Origin: Gammaproteobacteria bacterium
Lineage (GTDB): Bacteria; Pseudomonadota; Gammaproteobacteria; UWMA-0217
Direction: 5' to 3'
DNA: 64,000 bases
Assembly: GCA_026981985.1 (NCBI GenBank)
Contig: JALSHZ010000052.1
Coordinates: 1 to 64,000 of the forward strand
Position 1 is the stretch's first letter; each line of letters opens with the position of its first letter. A program made the position numbers and the translations under genes. The notes under the pieces are model-generated. The model searched no databases. It saw only the letters and a list, made by a program, of their open reading frames with translations, and had not been told where the DNA came from. This document shows, piece after piece, positions 1-30,898 of this stretch.

Positions 1-172
1 CGGAACTTGAGTTAAGAATAATGGGGCCTCGGCCACATTTTTTTACCGCCGTAGCCGGGAGTGTTTCCCCTTGCCCGATCCGGCGCCATGCCGCGGTTGC
101 ATCGCATGTGATAATCGAACACAGACGATTCATTGACAGTGTTTGTCCGATGAACAGCATGCCGGAGTGTGA

Positions 173-1342
173 ATGCAGCACGAATCCATGGTCTTCCAGC
201 TGTTTCTGGTGTTTGCCGGTGCAGCGGTATTGGCAACGGCTGCGCTGTGGGCGCGCCAGGCGCTGATCGTTGCCTATATCGTCCTTGGCATACTGTTGGG
301 ACCATCGGGCTTTGCCGTTCTGCCCGATACGGCATTCGTCGCCGGTATCGCCGAAATCGGCATTATCTTCCTGCTGTTCCTGCTCGGTCTGAATCTACAC
401 CCGCAGAAGCTTATTGCCCTGTTTCGTAGCGCGCTGTCTGTCACGCTGCTGAGCAGTGGCCTGTTTGCCGTTGTCGCAGCAATCCTTGCTGCGCTATTTG
501 GTTTTTCTGGCTGGGAGCTGTTGATCATCGCCGTGGCGTCGATGTTTTCCAGCACCATTATCGGCCTCAAGCTGCTGCCTACCTCGGTATTGCATCACCA
601 GCATACCGGTAGTGTGATCATCAGCATCCTGCTGTTGCAGGACATCCTCGCCATTCTCTGCTTGTTGGCGATTCGTGCTTGGGGTCTGGGCGAGACCACG
701 GTGCCGCAGTTGCTGCTGTTTCTGGCCAGTCTGCCGCTGCTGATCGGTTTTGCATTCCTCATGCAGCGCTGGCTGCTGACGCGTTTGCTGATGCGCTTCG
801 ACACGATTCGCGAATACGTCTTTCTGCTCGCCATCGGTTGGTGTCTGGGGTTGGCGGAGCTGGCGGCATGGCTGGGGCTGTCGGCGGAGATCGGCGCTTT
901 CATTGCAGGGATTGCGATTGCCGCCAACCCTGTTTCGATGTTCATCGCCGAAAGCCTGAAACCGCTGCGTGACTTCTTTCTGGTGTTGTTCTTCTTTGCG
1001 CTCGGTGCCGGGCTTGATCTGGCCATGATGCCGCAGCTGTGGCTGGCGGCTGCCATACTGGCAACTGCGATGCTGACGCTCAAGACATTGACCTTCCGGC
1101 AGTTGCTGACACGCGCCGGTGAGAGCAGGGCGCGTGCAGCTGAGATTGGCTTCCGGCTCGGACAGATGAGCGAGTTTTCCTTGCTGATTTCGGTGCTGGC
1201 GTTGTCGAACGGTCTGATTGGTGAGCGTGCCGCTTATCTCGTACAGATCGCCACGGTACTGACCTTCCTTGTTTCCCCTTATTTGATCGTGCTGCAGTAC
1301 CCGACGCCGATCGGAGTCAAGGATGCGTTGCGGCGAGATTGA
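173..1342 (+). CDS. Kef-type (CPA2) cation:proton antiporter, membrane domain only
   Basis: 389 aa, many TM helices, Na/H exchanger-like motifs (AEIGIIFLLFLLGLNL, FRLGQMSEFSLL); no RCK/TrkA-N domain. Confidence 0.85.
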   Translation: MQHESMVFQLFLVFAGAAVLATAALWARQALIVAYIVLGILLGPSGFAVLPDTAFVAGIAEIGIIFLLFLLGLNLHPQKLIALFRSALSVTLLSSGLFAVVAAILAALFGFSGWELLIIAVASMFSSTIIGLKLLPTSVLHHQHTGSVIISILLLQDILAILCLLAIRAWGLGETTVPQLLLFLASLPLLIGFAFLMQRWLLTRLLMRFDTIREYVFLLAIGWCLGLAELAAWLGLSAEIGAFIAGIAIAANPVSMFIAESLKPLRDFFLVLFFFALGAGLDLAMMPQLWLAAAILATAMLTLKTLTFRQLLTRAGESRARAAEIGFRLGQMSEFSLLISVLALSNGLIGERAAYLVQIATVLTFLVSPYLIVLQYPTPIGVKDALRRD

Positions 1343-18841: not shown

Positions 18842-20140
18842 GTGAGTGCCGTACGGCAAGAAACGCTGGGACAGGGGAGAATCCAGGAAGGAAAACATGG
18901 CAAGGTGGCGCGCAAGTATGTCACTGCCCTTGCTGGCCAGGGGCTGCTCAGCCTGTTTCATTTCGCGCTTAATATCGTACTCGTGCGGCAATTCGTGCCA
19001 CAGGACTATGGCATATTCGCGCTTGCGTTCGTGGCAGCGGTACTGGGCGCTTCTCTGACAGGGGCATTGGCAGGGACCCCAGTGTCTGTCTATACCCCCG
19101 GTGTGAGCCGGAGGGCAAAGCGCCATTATCTCGAAACCCTGCTGTCGACGGTCAATCTGGCACTGGTTGGTGTCATTCTGCTGACCACCCTGCTGGTCAC
19201 GCTATGGCTGCATTTTCCGTTGGGTACGATGCTGGGTTTCAGTGTTTTCGTGGCGTCATACGGGGCGCGGCAGTATTTCCGCGCCTTTGCTTTCGCCCGT
19301 CAATCTCCGCAGACGGCACTGTATGCGGATATCACCTATGTACTGACCGCATTACTGATTCTCCTGTTGGCTGTGATGCAGGGGGTGGTGCTGAATCTCG
19401 CACTGGTGCTGGCTGCGCTTGCGCTGGGCAATCTCGCAGCCATTTTTCTGGAGTTCAAGTCGCTGGCGGCAGGCCGTGTCAGAATCATCCGGCGCTGGCG
19501 ATCGCTGCGGCGCTATGGATTGATCTGGCAGCAGTCACGCTGGGCGCTGATTGGTGCTGTCACCACCCTGATAGCGACGCAGGCGCACAGTTTTATCGTC
19601 ACGATGTTTGCTGGTGCCGCTGCCTATGCACCCCTGGCGGCAGGGTTTGTATTGTTTGGGCCGATCAGGATCGGTTTGCAGTCTTGGTTGAGTGTGATGC
19701 GGCCGGAGTTGGCGGTGGCCATTGCGCAGCATGACCATGAAGCACTGCGCCGTATTCAGAGAACCTCAGCCTTGGTGATGTTGCTCGGTGTATTGCTGTT
19801 TGCGCTGTTGCTGCAGTTACTGTGGTCGCCTATCGATGAATTCCTCTATGCAAATCGTTATGGCGATGTGCCCATGGGCTGGATTGTCGCCGGTTGGTGT
19901 GCGGTGACGTTTTTCACCGCACAGGTGGTGACACCCAGTGGCATGTTACAGGCCTTGAAACGTTTTCGTGTGCTGGCGATGGGCACGGTGTATAGCGCTG
20001 TGCTCAGTGTCACGGCTGTGGCGATTTTCCTGGCACTGTGGGGATCTGCATATTCAGTGCTGGGCATCCTGCTTGCCGAAGCCTTTCTGGCCGTGTATTT
20101 GATCATCGCTGTCCGCCGGGAGGTGCAGAGAAGTTGGTAG
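18842..20140 (+). CDS. Wzx/MATE-like polysaccharide flippase
   Basis: 432 aa polytopic membrane protein in EPS operon; GTG start. Confidence 0.75.
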   Translation: MSAVRQETLGQGRIQEGKHGKVARKYVTALAGQGLLSLFHFALNIVLVRQFVPQDYGIFALAFVAAVLGASLTGALAGTPVSVYTPGVSRRAKRHYLETLLSTVNLALVGVILLTTLLVTLWLHFPLGTMLGFSVFVASYGARQYFRAFAFARQSPQTALYADITYVLTALLILLLAVMQGVVLNLALVLAALALGNLAAIFLEFKSLAAGRVRIIRRWRSLRRYGLIWQQSRWALIGAVTTLIATQAHSFIVTMFAGAAAYAPLAAGFVLFGPIRIGLQSWLSVMRPELAVAIAQHDHEALRRIQRTSALVMLLGVLLFALLLQLLWSPIDEFLYANRYGDVPMGWIVAGWCAVTFFTAQVVTPSGMLQALKRFRVLAMGTVYSAVLSVTAVAIFLALWGSAYSVLGILLAEAFLAVYLIIAVRREVQRSW

Positions 20141-20168
20141 TCCAGCTCCCCATTCTGGCGCGACAGGC

Positions 20169-21536
20169 ATGGTGGCCGCGCTGATGACTGAAGCGACCGT
20201 CAATATGCAGCAGCAAACGTTGTCGTGGCTCGATATTGTAGCTGCCATTGTTGCCGTGTTGCTGGGGACGGGGGCGGTGGCCGAGCTGCTGGCCTTTTTT
20301 GTCGGCGAAAGTTCCAGTGCCAGGGTGGTGACTGCAAGCTGGTTGCTGCTATATGCCTGGGCATTGCTGAAACTGGGTTCTGGCGACCAACTGCAATGGC
20401 TGGCCTGGTTATTCCGCTACCGGCTGCTACTGATATTGATTCTTGCGGCTGCCGCCGCTTCCTTTCTGTGGTCTATTGATGCGGCGCTCACGATGCGCCG
20501 CGCTGTGCATTTCATTGGCACGACACTACTGGCCTTTTATCTTGGCTATCGCTTCCGTTTTGGCTTGCTGATGGCGTTGCTGGCCGGTATTTTGGCTTTA
20601 TTGATGGTGGCCTCGCTGGTGGCGGTGGTGGTGCTGCCAGATCTCGGTATTCAGATCTACGAAGGCAAGCTCGTCTGGAAGGGAGTATTTCCAGACAAGA
20701 ATACGCTTGGGTTTTCCGCAGCTGTCTTGTTACTGATGCTCGTTGTGATCTTTGGCGCGGTTCGGCAATGGGGTGTGCGTCTAATACTGCTAGCTGGCAT
20801 GGCGACCGCGCTACTGGTGTTGATAGGAAGTCACTCGGCAACTTCGCTGGTTGCAATGGTGGTCGGTGTCACCATCATGGCGATCTTTTTCACCATCGCC
20901 AGGATCGGCATGGTTAGGTTCGGCGGCATTATGTTACTGCTGCTCTTCGGTATCGTGGGCGCGTTGTTTGTTCAGGGTGTCGATCTGTCGGCGCTGTTTT
21001 CTCTTCTTGGCCGTTCTACCGATCTGACCGGGAGGGAGGAGATATGGCAAGCGGTGAAATTGTTGATCGCCGACCACCCCTGGACGGGAACCGGATATGG
21101 CACGATCTGGTCGCCTACCCCTGAGAGTGAGTGGCAGCAATCGCTGCTCAATATCACCTGGACTGCCTACCACGCCCATAACGGTTTTTTCCAGGTTGCT
21201 TCCCAGCTTGGGTTGGTCGTTACCGGCCTGGCAATACTGTTTGTCTTGCAATTGCAGATCGAGGCCATTGCAGTCTATTTGCGCGCCTCACATATGATGG
21301 CGGCGATTCTGGTTATCGGTTTCCAGACGGCCTACCTCGTCAGCAACCTGACCGAGGCTTATTTCATGGTGGATCGTAATTTGTTCTGGATGCTCCAAAT
21401 CGCATTGCCGGTTGCATTGCTGCGGCTGGTTGAAACACCGGTTGTCATTGCGCCATACGACGTGCCCGCTGCAGAAACTTCACACAACGGGCGCGGTACT
21501 ATTGTCAATCATTATCAAGCGGGTTTGTCTCAATGA
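20169..21536 (+). CDS. O-antigen ligase / Wzy polymerase family membrane protein
   Basis: Polytopic; FPDKNTLGFSAAV...; GTGYGTIW...AYHAHNGFFQVASQLG (Wzy_C-like). Confidence 0.85.
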   Translation: MVAALMTEATVNMQQQTLSWLDIVAAIVAVLLGTGAVAELLAFFVGESSSARVVTASWLLLYAWALLKLGSGDQLQWLAWLFRYRLLLILILAAAAASFLWSIDAALTMRRAVHFIGTTLLAFYLGYRFRFGLLMALLAGILALLMVASLVAVVVLPDLGIQIYEGKLVWKGVFPDKNTLGFSAAVLLLMLVVIFGAVRQWGVRLILLAGMATALLVLIGSHSATSLVAMVVGVTIMAIFFTIARIGMVRFGGIMLLLLFGIVGALFVQGVDLSALFSLLGRSTDLTGREEIWQAVKLLIADHPWTGTGYGTIWSPTPESEWQQSLLNITWTAYHAHNGFFQVASQLGLVVTGLAILFVLQLQIEAIAVYLRASHMMAAILVIGFQTAYLVSNLTEAYFMVDRNLFWMLQIALPVALLRLVETPVVIAPYDVPAAETSHNGRGTIVNHYQAGLSQ

Positions 21537-22570
21537 AAAAAACTGTACTGGTTACTGGCGGCGCGGGCTATATCGGTTCTCATATGGTCAAGTTGTTGTT
21601 GGAGAAAGGCCACCGGGTCGTTGTTTTCGACAATTTGTCACGGGGGTTTGCGGATGCGGTGCTGTGTCCTGATCTGGTTGTTGGAGATTTGCTCAATCCC
21701 GCTGCGATCAACGATGTTTTTTCACGTTTTCAAGTCGACGTGGTCATGCACTTTGCCGCGCTCGCCTATGTCGGTGAATCAATGCAGCATCCTCGGGAAT
21801 ATTATTACAACAATGTAGCTGGTTCGATGAACCTGCTCAATGCCATGCTCGACCACGGTATCGACAAGTTTGTTTTCTCCTCCACCTGCGCGACTTATGG
21901 TGTGCCGGAAAAAATGCCGATCACTGAAGCTGAGGCACAGCGGCCAATCAATCCCTATGGCCAGAGCAAACTCATGGTTGAAAGAATACTCGCTGACTAT
22001 GCGCAGGCCTATGGGATGAACAGCATCGCGCTCCGCTATTTCAATGCGGCGGGCTGCGATCCGGATGGTCGCCTGGGCGAACGACATGATCCGGAAACGC
22101 ACCTGATTCCGCTGGTGCTGGAAGAAGCGCAGCGGGTGATTCAGGGCGGAAACCCAGCGGCAACAGGGCTTGAGGTATTCGGTACCGATTTCGATACAGC
22201 CGATGGCAGCTGTGTGCGGGATTACATTCATGTGACGGACCTATGCGCTGCCCATCTGGCGGCGATGGATCGTTTGCTCGATACGCCAGAAACAGGGGCC
22301 GAGGCGTACAACCTGGGAAACGGCAACGGCTTTTCAGTGCTCGATGTTATCGATGTCTGCCGACGGGTCACCGGTGTCGGGATCAACTACCGTGCCTCCG
22401 CCCGCCGCCCGGGTGATCCCGCGGTACTGATCGGTTCTGCAGATAAGGCGCTGGATATTCTCGGCTGGGAACCTCGCTATACGGATCTTGAGGAAATCGT
22501 CGCCTCGGCTTGGCTGTGGATGAATGGGGTTTCTGCCCAGCAGGAAAAAGCTGAAGAGTTGCTGGCGTAG
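21533..22570 (+). CDS. galE: UDP-glucose 4-epimerase
   Basis: VLVTGGAGYIGSHMVKLLLEKGH, STCATYGVPE, NPYGQSKLMVE, ALRYFNAAG; ATGA overlap with upstream gene. Confidence 0.92.
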   Translation: MKKTVLVTGGAGYIGSHMVKLLLEKGHRVVVFDNLSRGFADAVLCPDLVVGDLLNPAAINDVFSRFQVDVVMHFAALAYVGESMQHPREYYYNNVAGSMNLLNAMLDHGIDKFVFSSTCATYGVPEKMPITEAEAQRPINPYGQSKLMVERILADYAQAYGMNSIALRYFNAAGCDPDGRLGERHDPETHLIPLVLEEAQRVIQGGNPAATGLEVFGTDFDTADGSCVRDYIHVTDLCAAHLAAMDRLLDTPETGAEAYNLGNGNGFSVLDVIDVCRRVTGVGINYRASARRPGDPAVLIGSADKALDILGWEPRYTDLEEIVASAWLWMNGVSAQQEKAEELLA

Positions 22571-22638
22571 ATGCCAGCCATCACACCACCTTGAGTGGCC
22601 TCGCTACGCGACCCGGTGAGAAATGCCGGCCAGCTTAG

Positions 22639-23541
22639 CTATTGACGTTGCCGTGCCCGGCATTTTTCATCGATCTGATAGACCCGCACCCGATCGATCA
22701 TGAAATGCGCTGGAAATTGCGTACTGGCGTCCGGCTTGCCCGGCCAGTTGCCGCCAACCGCCAGGTTGAGCAACAAGTACATGGGTTGCCGCAAGTCCTG
22801 GGGTGTTGCTTCTTTCGCCAGCTGCTTGCCGTCCAGATACCAGCGGATTTCTGTTGCATCCCACTCTACGGCATAGTCGTGAAAGGCAGCGGTCAGGTCT
22901 GCCTTGCTTTGATGTTCGTGTGCGCGCGATTTGAGCGAGCCGCTTTGGTTGCTATGGACAGTTGTATGGAGTGTGTTTGGCTGGTGGCCGAGAAATTCAA
23001 CGACATCGATTTCAGGAAGAATAGCGATGCCTTCAGGCCATTTGTCGAATTTTGGCAGTAGCCAGAAGGCTGGCCACAAGCCTTGTCCCCGTGGCATTTT
23101 GGCTCGGATTTCAAAACGCCCGTATTGCTGTGCAAACAGGTTTTCGGTGGTGAGCAGGCCAGAAGTGAATTGCTTGCCAGCGGGCAGGGTATCTCGTTGC
23201 TGTGCTGAGGCCGGGCGTGCAACAATCGAGAGAATCCCTTGTTTGATGCGAAATGGTGACGCCTGATTCTTGTCCGGTTGCAGATAATACTGCAACTCGT
23301 TGTTGATGGTGATGTCATTTCCCCAGATATAGCTGGTTTTCCATCCCTTCGGTACACTCTGCGTCGTATTGGCAGTGTCGAATTGTTCCTCGAAAGTCAG
23401 CGTCAGGCAGTCCGTGCTGCGGGTTGTACTGGAGGTGGTGAGCGGCCAGCAGATGATGCCGATAGCGATGCAGTAAACAAACGCTGCGATTTTGCTGCTT
23501 TTGCAGGGGGCGAAGCTGCTGGCTCGTCGATGTCCACTCAC
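22639..23541 (-). CDS. Glycoside hydrolase family 16 protein, exported
   Basis: N-terminal TM/signal; catalytic motif region PEIDVVEFLGHQP (E-I-D-x-x-E) and FHDYAVEWDATEIRWYLDG. Confidence 0.88.
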   Translation of the reverse strand: MSGHRRASSFAPCKSSKIAAFVYCIAIGIICWPLTTSSTTRSTDCLTLTFEEQFDTANTTQSVPKGWKTSYIWGNDITINNELQYYLQPDKNQASPFRIKQGILSIVARPASAQQRDTLPAGKQFTSGLLTTENLFAQQYGRFEIRAKMPRGQGLWPAFWLLPKFDKWPEGIAILPEIDVVEFLGHQPNTLHTTVHSNQSGSLKSRAHEHQSKADLTAAFHDYAVEWDATEIRWYLDGKQLAKEATPQDLRQPMYLLLNLAVGGNWPGKPDASTQFPAHFMIDRVRVYQIDEKCRARQRQ

Positions 23542-23615: not shown

Positions 23616-24326
23616 TCAGATCTTGTGGTAACGCCAGCCTTCCTGCATTCGGCGAATAATGTGGTCGAGCGCCGTTGCACCGGTATGGGCTTCCGGAATG
23701 AGATCGACCTTGACGCCTTTTTCGCGCAGACGGGCAATGGCGTTGGCGCAGGCGAACAGCTCCAGATTGCTATATTTTCGGGTCAATTCCTGCAGCTTCA
23801 CTTTTTCTGCGCTCGCACCGCTGCGGAAGATGTCGAGACCGCCAGCGTTGGCCACCACCTCGACTCTGAGATCCTGGCTGTTGCTTTGCAGTAGCGCTTC
23901 GGTATAGCCGATGAGTGCCTGGAGCTTTCCTGGGGCATTGTCGTCGATATGCAGCAGGACTTTGTTGCTTTGTGCGATGGCAGCATGCGCGGCCATACTG
24001 GGTGTGCCGGCGACACCGGAGTCACTGCCGCTGAGGCCGTGTCCCATCCAGCCAAGAAGTATACCGGTGACGAGAACGACAATGGACGCAGCAATGCTGA
24101 ACCAGGGTAACGCATGCTTGTCTGACGGCTCAGGCAAAGGGTGTTCCTGTGACAACGGATATTGATTTTTTACCAGTGCCTTGAGGTATTGCAGCTGGCT
24201 GACCCGTGCCCGGATGGCATCGTCGTGCTCGATGGCTTTCAGGATATGTTCGTTTTCAGCTGGGTCCAGTTCTCCATCCACATAAAGGTGTAACTGGCTG
24301 TCACTGATCTCCTGTCCTGGCTTCAT
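23616..24326 (-). CDS. Anti-sigma factor with C-terminal periplasmic DsrE-like domain (fusion)
   Basis: N-terminal anti-sigma-like (ISDSQLHLYVDGELDPAENEHILKAIEHDD), one TM (FSIAASIVVLVTGILLGW), C-terminal DsrE-like domain with NLELFACANAIARLREKGVKV. Confidence 0.75.
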   Translation of the reverse strand: MKPGQEISDSQLHLYVDGELDPAENEHILKAIEHDDAIRARVSQLQYLKALVKNQYPLSQEHPLPEPSDKHALPWFSIAASIVVLVTGILLGWMGHGLSGSDSGVAGTPSMAAHAAIAQSNKVLLHIDDNAPGKLQALIGYTEALLQSNSQDLRVEVVANAGGLDIFRSGASAEKVKLQELTRKYSNLELFACANAIARLREKGVKVDLIPEAHTGATALDHIIRRMQEGWRYHKI

Positions 24327-24862
24327 GTGATACTCCGTAGCTTTGTCACTGTACCGCTTTCGCGATCCCGAAAGGACGCGAGGGATTTCTCCAATGCACT
24401 GCGGGCACGTGAAATACGACTCATGACCGTACCGACCGGGATCGACAGAATATCGGCTACTTCGCGATAGGAAAAGCCCTCAAGGTCGATCAGCATCAGC
24501 ACTTTTCTTTGCCCGACAGGCAGTTTGCTGATGGCTGCCTGAATGGCCTCGCTGGCCACCATGTTGCGGTAGCTTTTTTCCGGGCAGTCCTCACAGATGA
24601 GTACAACGTCGTCGATATCGACATCAGGCTTGAGGCTTCGCAGGTGGCTGAGCCAGCAATTGTGCAGAATGCGGTAGCACCAGGGGGCAATCTTGTCGAT
24701 GTTTTTCAGTTGATGTGATTTTTCGAGTGACTTGACGATGGTTTCCTGCACCAGGTCATCTGCAAGCTCTCGGCTTCCGCACCAGGCATAGGCCATACGG
24801 TAGAGATTGGGCCTGATGCTGCCGAGTTTCTTGCGAATAATCACTGCGTTGAGCGAGAGCAT
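24323..24862 (-). CDS. ECF-type RNA polymerase sigma factor
   Basis: Region 2 (YRMAYAWCGSRELADDLVQETIVKSL) and region 4 (LPVGQRKVLMLIDLEGFSYREVADILSIPVGTVMSRISRARSAL); 4-nt overlap with anti-sigma gene. Confidence 0.92.
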   Translation of the reverse strand: MLSLNAVIIRKKLGSIRPNLYRMAYAWCGSRELADDLVQETIVKSLEKSHQLKNIDKIAPWCYRILHNCWLSHLRSLKPDVDIDDVVLICEDCPEKSYRNMVASEAIQAAISKLPVGQRKVLMLIDLEGFSYREVADILSIPVGTVMSRISRARSALEKSLASFRDRESGTVTKLRSIT

Positions 24863-25136
24863 GGTCTTGATAAATCCCAGGGTCGGTATCGTTTACGATG
24901 CATCAGGCGTGGGCTTTATTCCAACTTTTTTTATTTTTTTCGACAGGGAATAAAACACATTCGTCACTCATCTTCCAGACAGTCCGGCCAGCGGGGACGT
25001 GGTGACCGTTGGCGAATGTGGAGAGGGCGTGGTTCCTTGCTCCATAGCCCTTGCTCCATTGTTTCTCGTCGCTGCCCTGCAGGATGCAACCGCGCCGGCC
25101 GGACATCCATATATCAATCACCGGAGATGATCACCC

Positions 25137-25592
25137 ATGAATACAATGAAAAGAGCGATTTCGGGTCTGCTTCTGGCCTTGCTGCTGGCGATGAGCTGGT
25201 CGGTGCCTGCGTTTGCCGATAGTGAAAGCAAGCCGTTCGCCGAAAAAAGGATCGTGCTGCAAATCAGCGACCCTAATCCTTTCAAGCAGACACTGGTTCT
25301 GAATGTCGCTAACAACCTGATCAAGCACTATGGTACTGACAAGGTCGACATCGAAATTGTTGCGTTTGGACCTGGCCTGCGATTGCTGTTTGCCGACAAT
25401 GCCAATAAAGCGCGCATTCAGGGGCTGGCGGACAACGAAGTCCGCTTTTCCGCGTGCAGCAATACGATCAGTGCGATGAGCAAGAAGCTCGGTCATGCGC
25501 CTGAGCTTAATCCTCACGCAGTCAAGGTATCGGCGGGTGTCGTCAGAATCATCGATTTGATCGATGAGGGATATGTTCTGATCAAGCCCTGA
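25137..25592 (+). CDS. Secreted DsrE family protein
   Basis: Signal peptide (GLLLALLLAMSWSVPAFA) and DsrE-like fold with conserved Cys region RFSACSNTISAMSKKLG. Confidence 0.8.
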   Translation: MNTMKRAISGLLLALLLAMSWSVPAFADSESKPFAEKRIVLQISDPNPFKQTLVLNVANNLIKHYGTDKVDIEIVAFGPGLRLLFADNANKARIQGLADNEVRFSACSNTISAMSKKLGHAPELNPHAVKVSAGVVRIIDLIDEGYVLIKP

Positions 25593-25802: not shown

Positions 25803-27125
25803 ATGAGAATCCGTCTATTCAAATATCGCCCAGCTGCGATCCTGGCCTTGCTGTCTGGGGCGCTGCTGGTTGGCGAGGCGCAGGCAGCCAACTGGCTGAT
25901 GCTGCAAGGCACTGAGCCAGCAGGCGCAGCACCGCGTGCCAAGCTTTGGGGTTTCATCCAGCCGGAATACCAGGACACTGATGGCAGCGAGCTGGCAGCT
26001 GGCCCCTGGAAAGGTCAGGAGGCCATCTTTAATCAGATCGGCCCTGATCTGAAAACCAGTACGACGTTTCAGCTGAGGCGTGCGCGTATCGGCGTCCGCG
26101 GTACCGGCATGCCGCTAGACAGCAACGTGAACTACTTCTTCCTCGCCGAAGCCGGTAATAATGGCATTACCCGGCAAGGCGGTGGCAGCGTGCGTCTGAC
26201 CGATGCGAGCGTGACACTGAATCACCTGCCGGGCGCGAGAATCCGGATCGGTCAGTTCAAGTATCCGGGCAGTGAAGAAGGCTTGCAGGCGATTCATGTA
26301 TTCGACTACATCAACTTCACCAATGTATCGAACATGCTGCTGCTCGAACGCTTTTTCGATGGTGATGGTTCCGACCCGCAGAATGCCAATCGTCCCAATG
26401 GTGCGCTGGGTGCGTTTCGGGATGTCGGTGTTCAACTGTTCGATTTTTTCAGGAAAGGCGGCTGGGAGCACAGCTACGCGGCGATGCTTGGCAACGGCAA
26501 TGGTATCGATCGGGCGGACAACGACGACAACAAGGATTTGTATCTGTACTGGTCCTCCGAGCTGATCTATGGCGGCAAGGGTGGTCGGCGTGAGGGTCTG
26601 AAGCTGCTGGCATGGTGGCAGGATGGCAAGCGTACACTGACGGGCGCAGGTGCCGGAGAGTACGACCGTACACGCTGGGGAACGGGTTTTACCTTCCGCA
26701 AGAACAAGTGGCGGGCAGCTGGTGAATATATCGCAGCCGATGGCATGGTCTTCAATGGTACCGATGGTGGTGCCGTGGCTGGGGCAAAGAACAATGCTGG
26801 CACCGCAGTTGCTTCGTTCAATGTCGAGCCTGAGGGTGAAGCTGATGGCTGGTATCTGCATACTGGCTATGCCGTGACACCAAAATGGGAACTGGACCTG
26901 CGTTACGATGTCCTCAATCGTGTCACCAATGTCGCAGCAAAAGAGCGCAAATTCGAGACAGTGACGGTAGGTGCGCAGTATTTCTTCAACAAAAAATCTC
27001 GCTTGATCTTCAACTATGAAGCGCGTGATGCTGAAGCGCCGGGTCTCGCAGCTGGTGCCGTGCCGAATCAGATTCTTGGTGGCATGGACGACCGGATTTC
27101 ACTGCAGTTTCTGGCGATATTCTGA
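25803..27125 (+). CDS. Outer membrane porin (phosphate-selective OprO/OprP-like)
   Basis: Signal peptide, FQLRRARIGVRGTG...VNYFFLAEAG, RIGQFKYPGSEEGLQ, barrel ending ISLQFLAIF. Confidence 0.75.
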   Translation: MRIRLFKYRPAAILALLSGALLVGEAQAANWLMLQGTEPAGAAPRAKLWGFIQPEYQDTDGSELAAGPWKGQEAIFNQIGPDLKTSTTFQLRRARIGVRGTGMPLDSNVNYFFLAEAGNNGITRQGGGSVRLTDASVTLNHLPGARIRIGQFKYPGSEEGLQAIHVFDYINFTNVSNMLLLERFFDGDGSDPQNANRPNGALGAFRDVGVQLFDFFRKGGWEHSYAAMLGNGNGIDRADNDDNKDLYLYWSSELIYGGKGGRREGLKLLAWWQDGKRTLTGAGAGEYDRTRWGTGFTFRKNKWRAAGEYIAADGMVFNGTDGGAVAGAKNNAGTAVASFNVEPEGEADGWYLHTGYAVTPKWELDLRYDVLNRVTNVAAKERKFETVTVGAQYFFNKKSRLIFNYEARDAEAPGLAAGAVPNQILGGMDDRISLQFLAIF

Positions 27126-29065: not shown

Positions 29066-30898
29066 TCAGTATTGGCGAATACGACGCCGGAACGCAGCGG
29101 CGAAGCCACTCATGATGCCGATGAAGGACAGCGCGAGGCTGCCGCCGCCACCGCCGGACTTGGTGTCAGAGTCGCCGAGCACGGCGCTGCCGGGCAGCTT
29201 GACCTCGGTTTTCTCGTCGGTGTCCATATAGGAAGGAACGCCATCGCCATCGGCGTCAGTACATGCCGGTGCGGTGGGGCATTCGCCGTAATCCGAGATG
29301 CCGTCGCCATCCGAGTCGCCACTGCCATCCTTGGTTTCTGCCTTGTTGTCAGAATCGGCGTCGAGATAGTCGGGGATATTGTCGCCATCCTTGTCGCGAG
29401 GCTCCAGTGCATCGGCGCCGAGCTCATCGCGGGTCGGGCGTCCATCGCCATCGTCGTCCGGGTCTTCATGATCCTTGATGCCGTCACCATCGGTGTCGCG
29501 GCTGTTGGATTCCAGTGCGTCGATCACGCCATCGCTGTCGCTATCTAGCGTCGCGCCTTCCGAGGCGGTGTCGAGCTTGTCATTGTCGTCGTTGGAATCC
29601 ATGTAATTCGGCAGGCCGTCACCGTCACTATCGGCGCAGTTGGCCGGGCTGGGGCATTCCTCCTTGTCGGAGAGGCCATCCTGATCGGAGTCGCCGCTGC
29701 CATCGCTGGTGCCACCTGCGTTCTTGCTGTCGGCGTCGAGATAGTCGCGGATGCCATTGTTATCTGAGTCAGCCGGGTAGTCAGGGTTGGAGCCCAGTTC
29801 GTTCAGCGTGATATTGCCGTCGTTGTCGTCGTCGTCATCCAGATAGTTCGGATCGCCGTCGCCATCGGTGTCGATGTTGTTCGGCTCCAAATAATCCTTG
29901 ATGCCGTCGCCATCGCTGTCCTTGTCCAGCCCTTCCTGGTCATTGGGAATGCCGTCGTTGTCGGCGTCGCTGTCGTTGATATCGGCCACGCCGTCGCGAT
30001 CGGTATCGAGTAGGGTGAATGCAGATACCGATGGGCTGAAGCTGCTAACCAACGACTGTCCACCAGTGCCTGGGATGCTATCGGTCCGGGTGCGGATTGC
30101 GAGATGGTATTCAGTGGACGGTGTCAGACCTGCAATGGTGAGCTTGCTGCTGGTTTTGTCGTCCGACTTGTGAAGAACATCGTCATCAATAGAGAGATCA
30201 GCATCAGGGCTGACAATGATCTCGTACTTGCCGCCGTCGGCGGTGTAGGCGATCGGTGTCCACTCCAGTGAGATCGAATCGATGGTGGTGCCGGTCACAG
30301 CCAGGCCGGTCGGCGCTACCGTTTGCGTGGCTTGCCAGTCATCACCTTGTTTTTCGGTTAGGAATGTATCGGTATCGTCAGCGTTACTGGAACTCAGCAT
30401 GTTGTAGCTGATATCGAGCTTGGTCAGTGCCGTCAATGCTTTCATGCTGACAGGCACTGCACCTTCGAAGGCGTTGCGGTCGAGGCTCAACTCTTCGAGT
30501 TGGGTAAGCTTGCCGATGCTATCAGGAATTTTACCGCTGAAACGGTTATTCGACAGGTCGAGCACCTTGAGCTGGTCGAGGTCGCCGATTTCGACAGGCA
30601 AAACGCCTTCGAGGTCGTAGTTTGCCAGATCGAGGTGAGTGACCCTGCCGCCGGTGCAGGTGACACCTTTCCAGTCGTCACAGTGCTGGCCGGAACCCCA
30701 GCCTTCGGCGACCAGTGGGCTACTGGCTAGACCACCTGTGGCTTTCAACAGTTCGGTTAGCGCTGCCTCATCGGAAGCAGCATGCGCCGCCAACGGAAGC
30801 GCTGAAATCATTGCGATGCCCAGTGCCAGTGCGCTGAAGCTGTGCCTGCGTGGGGTAGAAGAAGTCAATACAGTGGGGGAGGGAGCGTTCATATCCAT
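29066..30898 (-). CDS. Exported LRR + FN3 + thrombospondin type 3 repeat protein with GlyGly-CTERM-like tail
   Basis: Plant-like LRRs (LKVLDLSNNRFSGKIPDSIGKLTQLEELSLDRN), FN3 segment, DxDxDG calcium-binding repeats, C-terminus SGGGGGSLALSFIGIMSGFAAAFRRRIRQY. Confidence 0.82.
   Translation of the reverse strand: MDMNAPSPTVLTSSTPRRHSFSALALGIAMISALPLAAHAASDEAALTELLKATGGLASSPLVAEGWGSGQHCDDWKGVTCTGGRVTHLDLANYDLEGVLPVEIGDLDQLKVLDLSNNRFSGKIPDSIGKLTQLEELSLDRNAFEGAVPVSMKALTALTKLDISYNMLSSSNADDTDTFLTEKQGDDWQATQTVAPTGLAVTGTTIDSISLEWTPIAYTADGGKYEIIVSPDADLSIDDDVLHKSDDKTSSKLTIAGLTPSTEYHLAIRTRTDSIPGTGGQSLVSSFSPSVSAFTLLDTDRDGVADINDSDADNDGIPNDQEGLDKDSDGDGIKDYLEPNNIDTDGDGDPNYLDDDDDNDGNITLNELGSNPDYPADSDNNGIRDYLDADSKNAGGTSDGSGDSDQDGLSDKEECPSPANCADSDGDGLPNYMDSNDDNDKLDTASEGATLDSDSDGVIDALESNSRDTDGDGIKDHEDPDDDGDGRPTRDELGADALEPRDKDGDNIPDYLDADSDNKAETKDGSGDSDGDGISDYGECPTAPACTDADGDGVPSYMDTDEKTEVKLPGSAVLGDSDTKSGGGGGSLALSFIGIMSGFAAAFRRRIRQY

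Follow-up and report, generated by a model that had tools for sequence, protein, structure and literature searches.

A candidate periplasmic, reduced-sulfur-responsive ECF sigma/anti-sigma switch with a DsrE-like domain in sulfur-oxidising Gammaproteobacteria

How sulfur-oxidising bacteria sense inorganic sulfur has been described as little known, and the sulfane-sulfur sensors covered by the same source are cytoplasmic, whereas the oxidation of thiosulfate begins in the periplasm (PMC10451225). In the ArsR-type repressors SoxR, SqrR and sHdrR, Cys modification gives sulfur-responsive control of sulfur genes, with two Cys bridged by sulfur in SoxR (PMC10451225); these are cytoplasmic DNA-binding proteins, whereas the system considered here would rely on a membrane anti-sigma factor with one periplasmic Cys. 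Control of sulfur genes by an ECF sigma factor is known from Sinorhizobium meliloti, where RpoE4 takes part in a response to sulfite (PMC3511301). The RpoE4/RpoE1 (ECF26) system likewise combines an ECF sigma factor with a co-encoded anti-sigma factor, is autoregulated, is activated by a sulfur compound and controls the sulfur-oxidation gene sorT, but it is alphaproteobacterial; its anti-sigma factor is described as of the COG5662 type, and neither a DsrE domain in it nor a secreted DsrE or a porin as its partner is reported (PMC3511301). In Arcobacter butzleri, a member of the Campylobacterota, soxCDXYZAB is in the regulon of the ECF sigma-2/anti-sigma-2 pair (PMC3445524), and it is in this sox regulon that we compare the two systems. 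The TspS/TspR sigma-54 two-component system of Acidithiobacillus caldus is also linked to a sox cluster, but through unrelated proteins, a histidine kinase and a sigma-54 activator (cited in PMC12194929).

DsrEFH, TusBCD, DsrE3A and the archaeal proteins MTH1491 and ST0148 resemble the domains described below in their fold and in a conserved Cys, which in studied members of the DsrE family (DsrEFH Cys78 is counted among them) binds sulfur or thiosulfate groups (PMC4175335). The studied members among DsrEFH, TusBCD and DsrE3A are cytoplasmic carriers, whereas the DsrE-type proteins of this locus are predicted to be secreted or fused behind the transmembrane (TM) helix of an anti-sigma factor. 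We found no published anti-sigma factor with a DsrE domain in the open-access literature searched, in agreement with the first-pass annotation of this DNA, whose author model knew of no described anti-sigma factor of this form. The ECF switch itself is thus of a known kind, and what sets this one apart is the putative DsrE sensor domain, which we found nowhere described in that role.

The locus lies in a 64,000-nt stretch of a gammaproteobacterial contig, referred to as the window, in which an ECF sigma gene and a membrane anti-sigma gene stand divergent from the gene for a secreted DsrE protein and, after it, a porin gene (Table 1). On balance, we favour the prediction that these genes encode a periplasmic, reduced-sulfur-responsive, transmembrane ECF sigma/anti-sigma switch of sulfur-oxidising Gammaproteobacteria. 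Such a switch is probably how sulfur oxidisers of many lineages sense reduced sulfur outside the cytoplasm, and the proposed chemistry is likely the modification of a single Cys, to a persulfide or in another way, alone or via the secreted DsrE. The evidence for this prediction comes from sequence, namely from the architecture of the proteins, the linkage of their genes, the invariant single Cys, the co-occurrence with sulfur genes and a common promoter motif.

Table 1. Features of the sigma/anti-sigma/DsrE/porin locus, in window coordinates
Feature	Position	Strand	Evidence
ECF sigma factor, 179 aa	24323..24862	-	Pfam Sigma70_r4_2 1.2e-18, Sigma70_r2 3.1e-11; TIGR02937 over cut-off
Membrane anti-sigma factor, 236 aa	23616..24326	-	ATGA overlap with sigma; AlphaFold2; Foldseek and HMM matches to MTH1491 and DsrEFH
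Predicted parts of the anti-sigma factor: anti-sigma domain ~9-55; TM ~75-93; flexible linker; periplasmic DsrE-like domain ~119-236			
Predicted anti-sigma TM helix, residues 75-93, WFSIAASIVVLVTGILLGW	24048..24104	-	AlphaFold2 helix; KR bias N-in in 82/90 relatives
Codon of anti-sigma Cys193 (single, invariant, predicted periplasmic)	23748..23750	-	C in 90/90 distinct fusions
Secreted DsrE-family protein, 151 aa, signal peptide ~1-27	25137..25592	+	1l1s match; AlphaFold2 and Foldseek
Codon of secreted DsrE Cys107	25455..25457	+	C in 112/116 DsrE-type ORFs of loci
Putative OprO/OprP-type outer-membrane porin (signal peptide, then ANWLMLQGTEP)	25803..27125, start about 25803	+	Homologues PF07396; kept beside DsrE
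Predicted ECF promoter of secreted DsrE and porin, GGAATAAAACACATTCGTCACTCATC(T)	24947..24972	+	Perfect match to enumerated motif
Predicted ECF promoter of sigma and anti-sigma, GGAATAAAGCCCACGCCTGATGCATC	24897..24922	-	Same motif, opposite strand

The first-pass annotation had proposed an ECF sigma factor, a 4-nt overlap between its gene and that of an anti-sigma factor with one TM helix and a DsrE-like C-terminus, and a divergent DsrE protein with a signal peptide, and each of these assignments held up. The sigma factor has the size and make-up of the ECF group (group 4), being small and containing only regions 2 and 4, both over the Pfam cut-off; the anti-sigma gene is adjacent, its start overlapping the sigma stop codon (ATGA), and the predicted bipartite promoter upstream of the operon is, judged from sequence, consistent with autoregulation. 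In the AlphaFold2 model of the anti-sigma factor, helices at residues 9-16, 22-34 and 36-55 precede the TM helix and a low-confidence linker, and this helical N-terminal domain ahead of one TM is the layout of class I anti-sigma factors (ASDI). The N-terminus is anti-sigma-like, with a weak zf-HC2 match below the Pfam cut-off, and 12 relatives gave weak matches to zf-HC2 in 3 cases and to RseA_N in 1. The zinc motif HxxxCxxC occurs in 0 of 90 anti-sigma relatives, for which reason the zinc anti-sigma (ZAS) subgroup was rejected. From family resemblance and gene order, we infer that the N-terminus sequesters the sigma factor. Positive-inside (KR) counts favour the N-in/C-out orientation in 82 of the 90 relatives, the same topology as had been predicted at first (cytoplasmic N-terminus, periplasmic C-terminus), which would place the DsrE domain in the periplasm.

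Residues 121-236 of the anti-sigma factor are modelled with confidence (AlphaFold2 block means 88-96). By sequence, the C-terminus matches MTH1491 (1l1s) with E 2.7e-7 for the protein alone and 3.7e-19 as a 12-member profile, and the Foldseek matches of the model comprise 1l1s, ST0148, DsrEFH, YchN and TusBCD, with 2hy5 and 2d1p included. Pfam and NCBIfam returned no DsrE domain for the window anti-sigma factor alone, and PF02635 was matched by 5 of 12 relatives; we rejected the silence of Pfam as evidence against the domain, since sequence, profile and fold searches all found it. The secreted protein, whose signal peptide ends in AFA, matches 1l1s with E 1.6e-7 alone and 1.2e-29 as a 12-member profile, its AlphaFold2 model is confident over the DsrE domain, and PF02635 is matched by 10 of 12 of its relatives. 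Foldseek groups it with MTH1491, ST0148 and the DsrE/YchN family, and the E value against 1l1s is 1.5e-9 for both the anti-sigma and the secreted model. Structure prediction and HMM searches, suggested at the outset as a check on both C-terminal domains, returned a DsrE fold for each, and a profile-profile comparison of the two families gave a probability of 99.8% (E 2.5e-29) and aligned the Cys of one with that of the other. For the window porin taken alone there was a weak match only, and none to PF07396 in Pfam, while homologues lie over the cut-off of that family (Porin_O_P; 2.7e-12, 2e-9 and 2.4e-8). By these matches in its relatives, the porin is a predicted anion-type, OprO/P-like channel and not a TonB-dependent receptor.

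Both DsrE domains keep the Cys motif that the first-pass annotation had quoted for them (C193 in the anti-sigma factor, C107 in the secreted protein). C193 is a Cys in 90 of 90 distinct fused anti-sigma factors, all 90 of which have exactly one Cys in their last 125 residues, and across 12 diverse fusions the only invariant residues are G163, C193, G230 and W231. In the secreted type, the Cys is kept in 112 of 116 DsrE-type ORFs of the loci. Both residues align in profiles with the Cys of MTH1491 and ST0148, and an equivalence with DsrE Cys78 is inferred. Since the Cys is common to the archaeal MTH1491 and ST0148, it is a trait of the subfamily and not specific to signalling. An internal dithiol/disulfide switch is unlikely because each DsrE domain has one Cys, and we rejected an intramolecular switch of this kind. 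One locus, L009, encodes a secreted DsrE partner (2223-2687) with G instead of the Cys, whose gene overlaps that of its anti-sigma factor by 4 nt; this protein is possibly a non-loading regulatory subunit.

To count linkage, 80 loci were gathered from named genomes by the secreted DsrE alone, so that the count is independent of the anti-sigma factor. The sigma and fused anti-sigma genes lie divergently upstream in 51 of the 59 loci with at least 2.6 kb of upstream DNA, the sigma gene is divergent from the secreted DsrE gene in 60 of 60 loci, and the porin gene follows directly after DsrE in 74 of 75. The linkage is thus strongly conserved; neither its absence, nor a fold other than DsrE, nor the opposite topology, any of which the first-pass annotation had named as grounds for giving up its proposal, was observed. 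Loci titled beyond class level belong mostly to sulfur oxidisers (Thiohalobacter, Sedimenticola, Thiolapillus, Thiogranum, Thiotrichales, Chromatiales), and a search for plasmid-borne relatives gave no plasmid match. The window's own genome has a second locus, L002 (G000:C144), with sigma, fused anti-sigma and secreted DsrE genes all in the same direction, and a gene for a DUF302 protein (220-876) adjoins it convergently.

A tree places all 90 anti-sigma DsrE domains on one side (support 0.85), joined there by only one other DsrE, at the end of L050, which overlaps the upstream anti-sigma gene of a tandem pair cut by the end of the locus. This is consistent with one ancient fusion of anti-sigma factor and DsrE, and repeated independent fusions, with 90 of 90 domains on one side, are not favoured. 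Several loci depart from the common arrangement. L127, L062 and L069 have DsrE-porin pairs with neither a sigma pair in the fetched flank nor a good promoter match, and the DsrE-porin unit may be older than its association with the sigma pair. L261 and L262 have tandem pairs of sigma and fused anti-sigma genes, one of them ending in a secreted DsrE, as well as a second divergent DsrE-porin pair and a phosphoribulokinase-like gene nearby. An extra DsrE-like gene stands between sigma and DsrE-porin in L064, L068, L070, L071, L075, L079, L080, L105 and L125. L092 (DSDH01000421.1) comes from a MAG labelled Phycisphaerales and is probably a mis-binned gammaproteobacterial contig.

Full-length fusions occur in 66 of the 369 sampled genomes of the window's class, in 40 GTDB families as counted from the listing. 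They are confined to this class in a phylum-wide sample of 399 genomes, where matches outside the class have no anti-sigma domain. All 66 fusion genomes carry dsrA or soxB, versus 164 of 369 overall (Fisher p about 6e-28; the genomes are not independent for this test, and the co-occurrence still holds in each of the 40 families), with dsrA in 52 and soxB in 65; among the 369 genomes, none without dsrA or soxB has the fusion. L259 has sigma and anti-sigma followed by soxX, soxY, soxZ, soxA and soxB, with DsrE-porin divergent; L260 has, beside the sigma pair, a cluster of soxX, Z, A and B with a secreted DsrE after it; and in L258 sox genes adjoin the sigma/anti-sigma pair. The connection with sulfur, proposed in the beginning from the fold, is now further supported by this co-occurrence, by the sox linkage in some genomes and by a motif upstream of soxB.

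The motif, a bipartite and ECF-like GGAATAAA-N14-C(G/A)TCT with 16 nt from GAATA to C(G/A)TC, was found in both directions by enumeration over 63 divergent intergenic regions. It points towards DsrE in 41, towards sigma in 37 and both ways in 31 of them, and its density there is 1.41 per kb, whereas the rest of these loci has 0.025 per kb; L090 and L094 have it with a spacing longer by one. The window's genome contains six perfect copies (reversed control: one), which are the two window sites before sigma and DsrE, one copy each before the paralogous sigma gene (at 33 nt) and soxB (at 162 nt), and two others with no gene that is clearly their partner. A stricter motif had nine perfect copies in 20 other genomes: sigma genes follow five of them, soxB follows two and a secreted DsrE gene one, while the ninth, probably by chance, precedes an ORF resembling monomeric isocitrate dehydrogenase. 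For a weight matrix, the divergent intergenic sites served as the sole training set. At a threshold of at least 12 bits, it placed sites 85-277 nt ahead of the soxB match in 14 of 60 regions from fusion-bearing genomes (11 families), in 0 of these 60 on the antisense strand, and in 1 of 40 soxB genomes without the fusion. The p values for the soxB counts are 0.004 (Fisher, 14 of 60 versus 1 of 40) and 5e-5. Upstream of dsrA the matrix found no site in 20 regions, on which ground control of dsrA by this motif was rejected; together with the 14 of 60 for soxB, this means that sox control is not universal. In L287, a secreted DsrE gene with the promoter motif stands beside a DUF692-like ORF and a small Cys-containing ORF, neighbours that resemble, by eye only, a bufferin-type metal-chelator operon.

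The mechanism that we propose is as follows. By homology and gene order, the N-terminal domain of the anti-sigma factor would hold the sigma factor at the membrane. A sulfane sulfur or thiosulfate-type species would be loaded covalently onto Cys193 of the periplasmic DsrE-like domain, either directly or from the secreted DsrE, and the two proteins may assemble in the manner of DsrE-family subunits. Loading or hetero-assembly would then alter the state of the anti-sigma factor or mark it for proteolysis and so free the sigma factor, which, as the conserved motifs predict, would transcribe its own operon, the secreted DsrE/anion-porin operon and, in many genomes, soxB or a sox operon. The outcome would be a positive loop, in which the presence of substrate leads to more uptake of sulfur anions, periplasmic handling and thiosulfate oxidation. 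Archaeal DsrE3A, tested in detail, reacts with tetrathionate and not with polysulfide or thiosulfate (PMC4175335), which makes the ligand of the anti-sigma DsrE domain uncertain.

A possible but doubtful alternative is that the true role of receptor or messenger belongs to the secreted DsrE, which would pick up sulfur in the periplasm, while the DsrE domain of the anti-sigma factor does no more than dock; exchange between a homo-oligomer of the secreted protein and a mixed oligomer with the anti-sigma factor would set the release of sigma. The two domains have one fold and an aligned Cys, the secreted DsrE is predicted to be co-regulated with sigma and is nearly always adjacent to it, and it is far more conserved than the anti-sigma factor (61-71% versus 31-33% identity among L003, L005, L006 and L007). 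DsrEFH and TusBCD subunits form hetero-hexamers, and 2hy5 and 2d1p are among the Foldseek matches. However, the invariance of C193 is more than passive docking needs, and in some fusion loci, such as L264, a secreted DsrE is absent from the fetched DNA. More tentatively than for the switch itself, we suggest that these proteins may form a separate class of transmembrane anti-sigma factor, which on a single occasion took over a sulfur-carrier domain for sensing in the periplasm, and that sulfur-loaded secreted DsrE may exchange with the anti-sigma factor in a mixed oligomer, so that periplasmic sulfur traffic would be the signal for sox, carrier and porin genes. If this is true, such traffic would act as that signal in much of gammaproteobacterial sulfur lithotrophy.

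We consider it improbable that the locus encodes a general periplasmic oxidant or envelope-stress switch, in which reactive oxygen, chlorine or metals strike the exposed Cys and the co-occurrence with sulfur genes reflects lifestyle. Many ECF systems do answer envelope or redox stress, and an exposed thiolate could react with oxidants, but the one Cys per domain excludes an internal disulfide, the genes to which motif and linkage point are those of sox and an anion porin and not ones for repair or detoxification, and no sampled genome that lacks sulfur-oxidation genes has the fusion. Still less probable is an arrangement resembling cell-surface signalling, in which the state of the porin or a substrate delivered by it, not Cys chemistry, controls the anti-sigma factor and the DsrE domain is a contact without a sulfur role: an outer-membrane protein gene does stand beside the secreted DsrE almost throughout, and there are known ECF systems that work with an outer-membrane receptor (PMC3445524), but the porin is predicted to be of the OprO/P type and not a TonB-dependent receptor, DsrE-porin pairs also occur with no sigma pair nearby, and the Cys is kept in all anti-sigma factors.

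The reduced-sulfur switch that we favour would be a widespread periplasmic sensor among sulfur oxidisers, and as a candidate it has the advantage that both its Cys and its promoter are defined and that soxB belongs to its predicted regulon. Thiohalobacter thiocyanaticus (L116) is an example of a cultured relative that would allow direct tests, and a heterologous reporter of reduced sulfur could be built from the parts of the system.

Elsewhere in the window, positions 18842-23541 hold an exopolysaccharide-type cluster, unrelated to the sigma switch, with flippase-like, O-antigen-ligase-like and UDP-glucose 4-epimerase-like proteins and a GH16 glycanase. On the minus strand, positions 29066-30898 encode a large secreted protein that combines leucine-rich repeats and a fibronectin III domain with Asp-rich repeats of the calcium type and ends in an anchor-like C-terminal helix.
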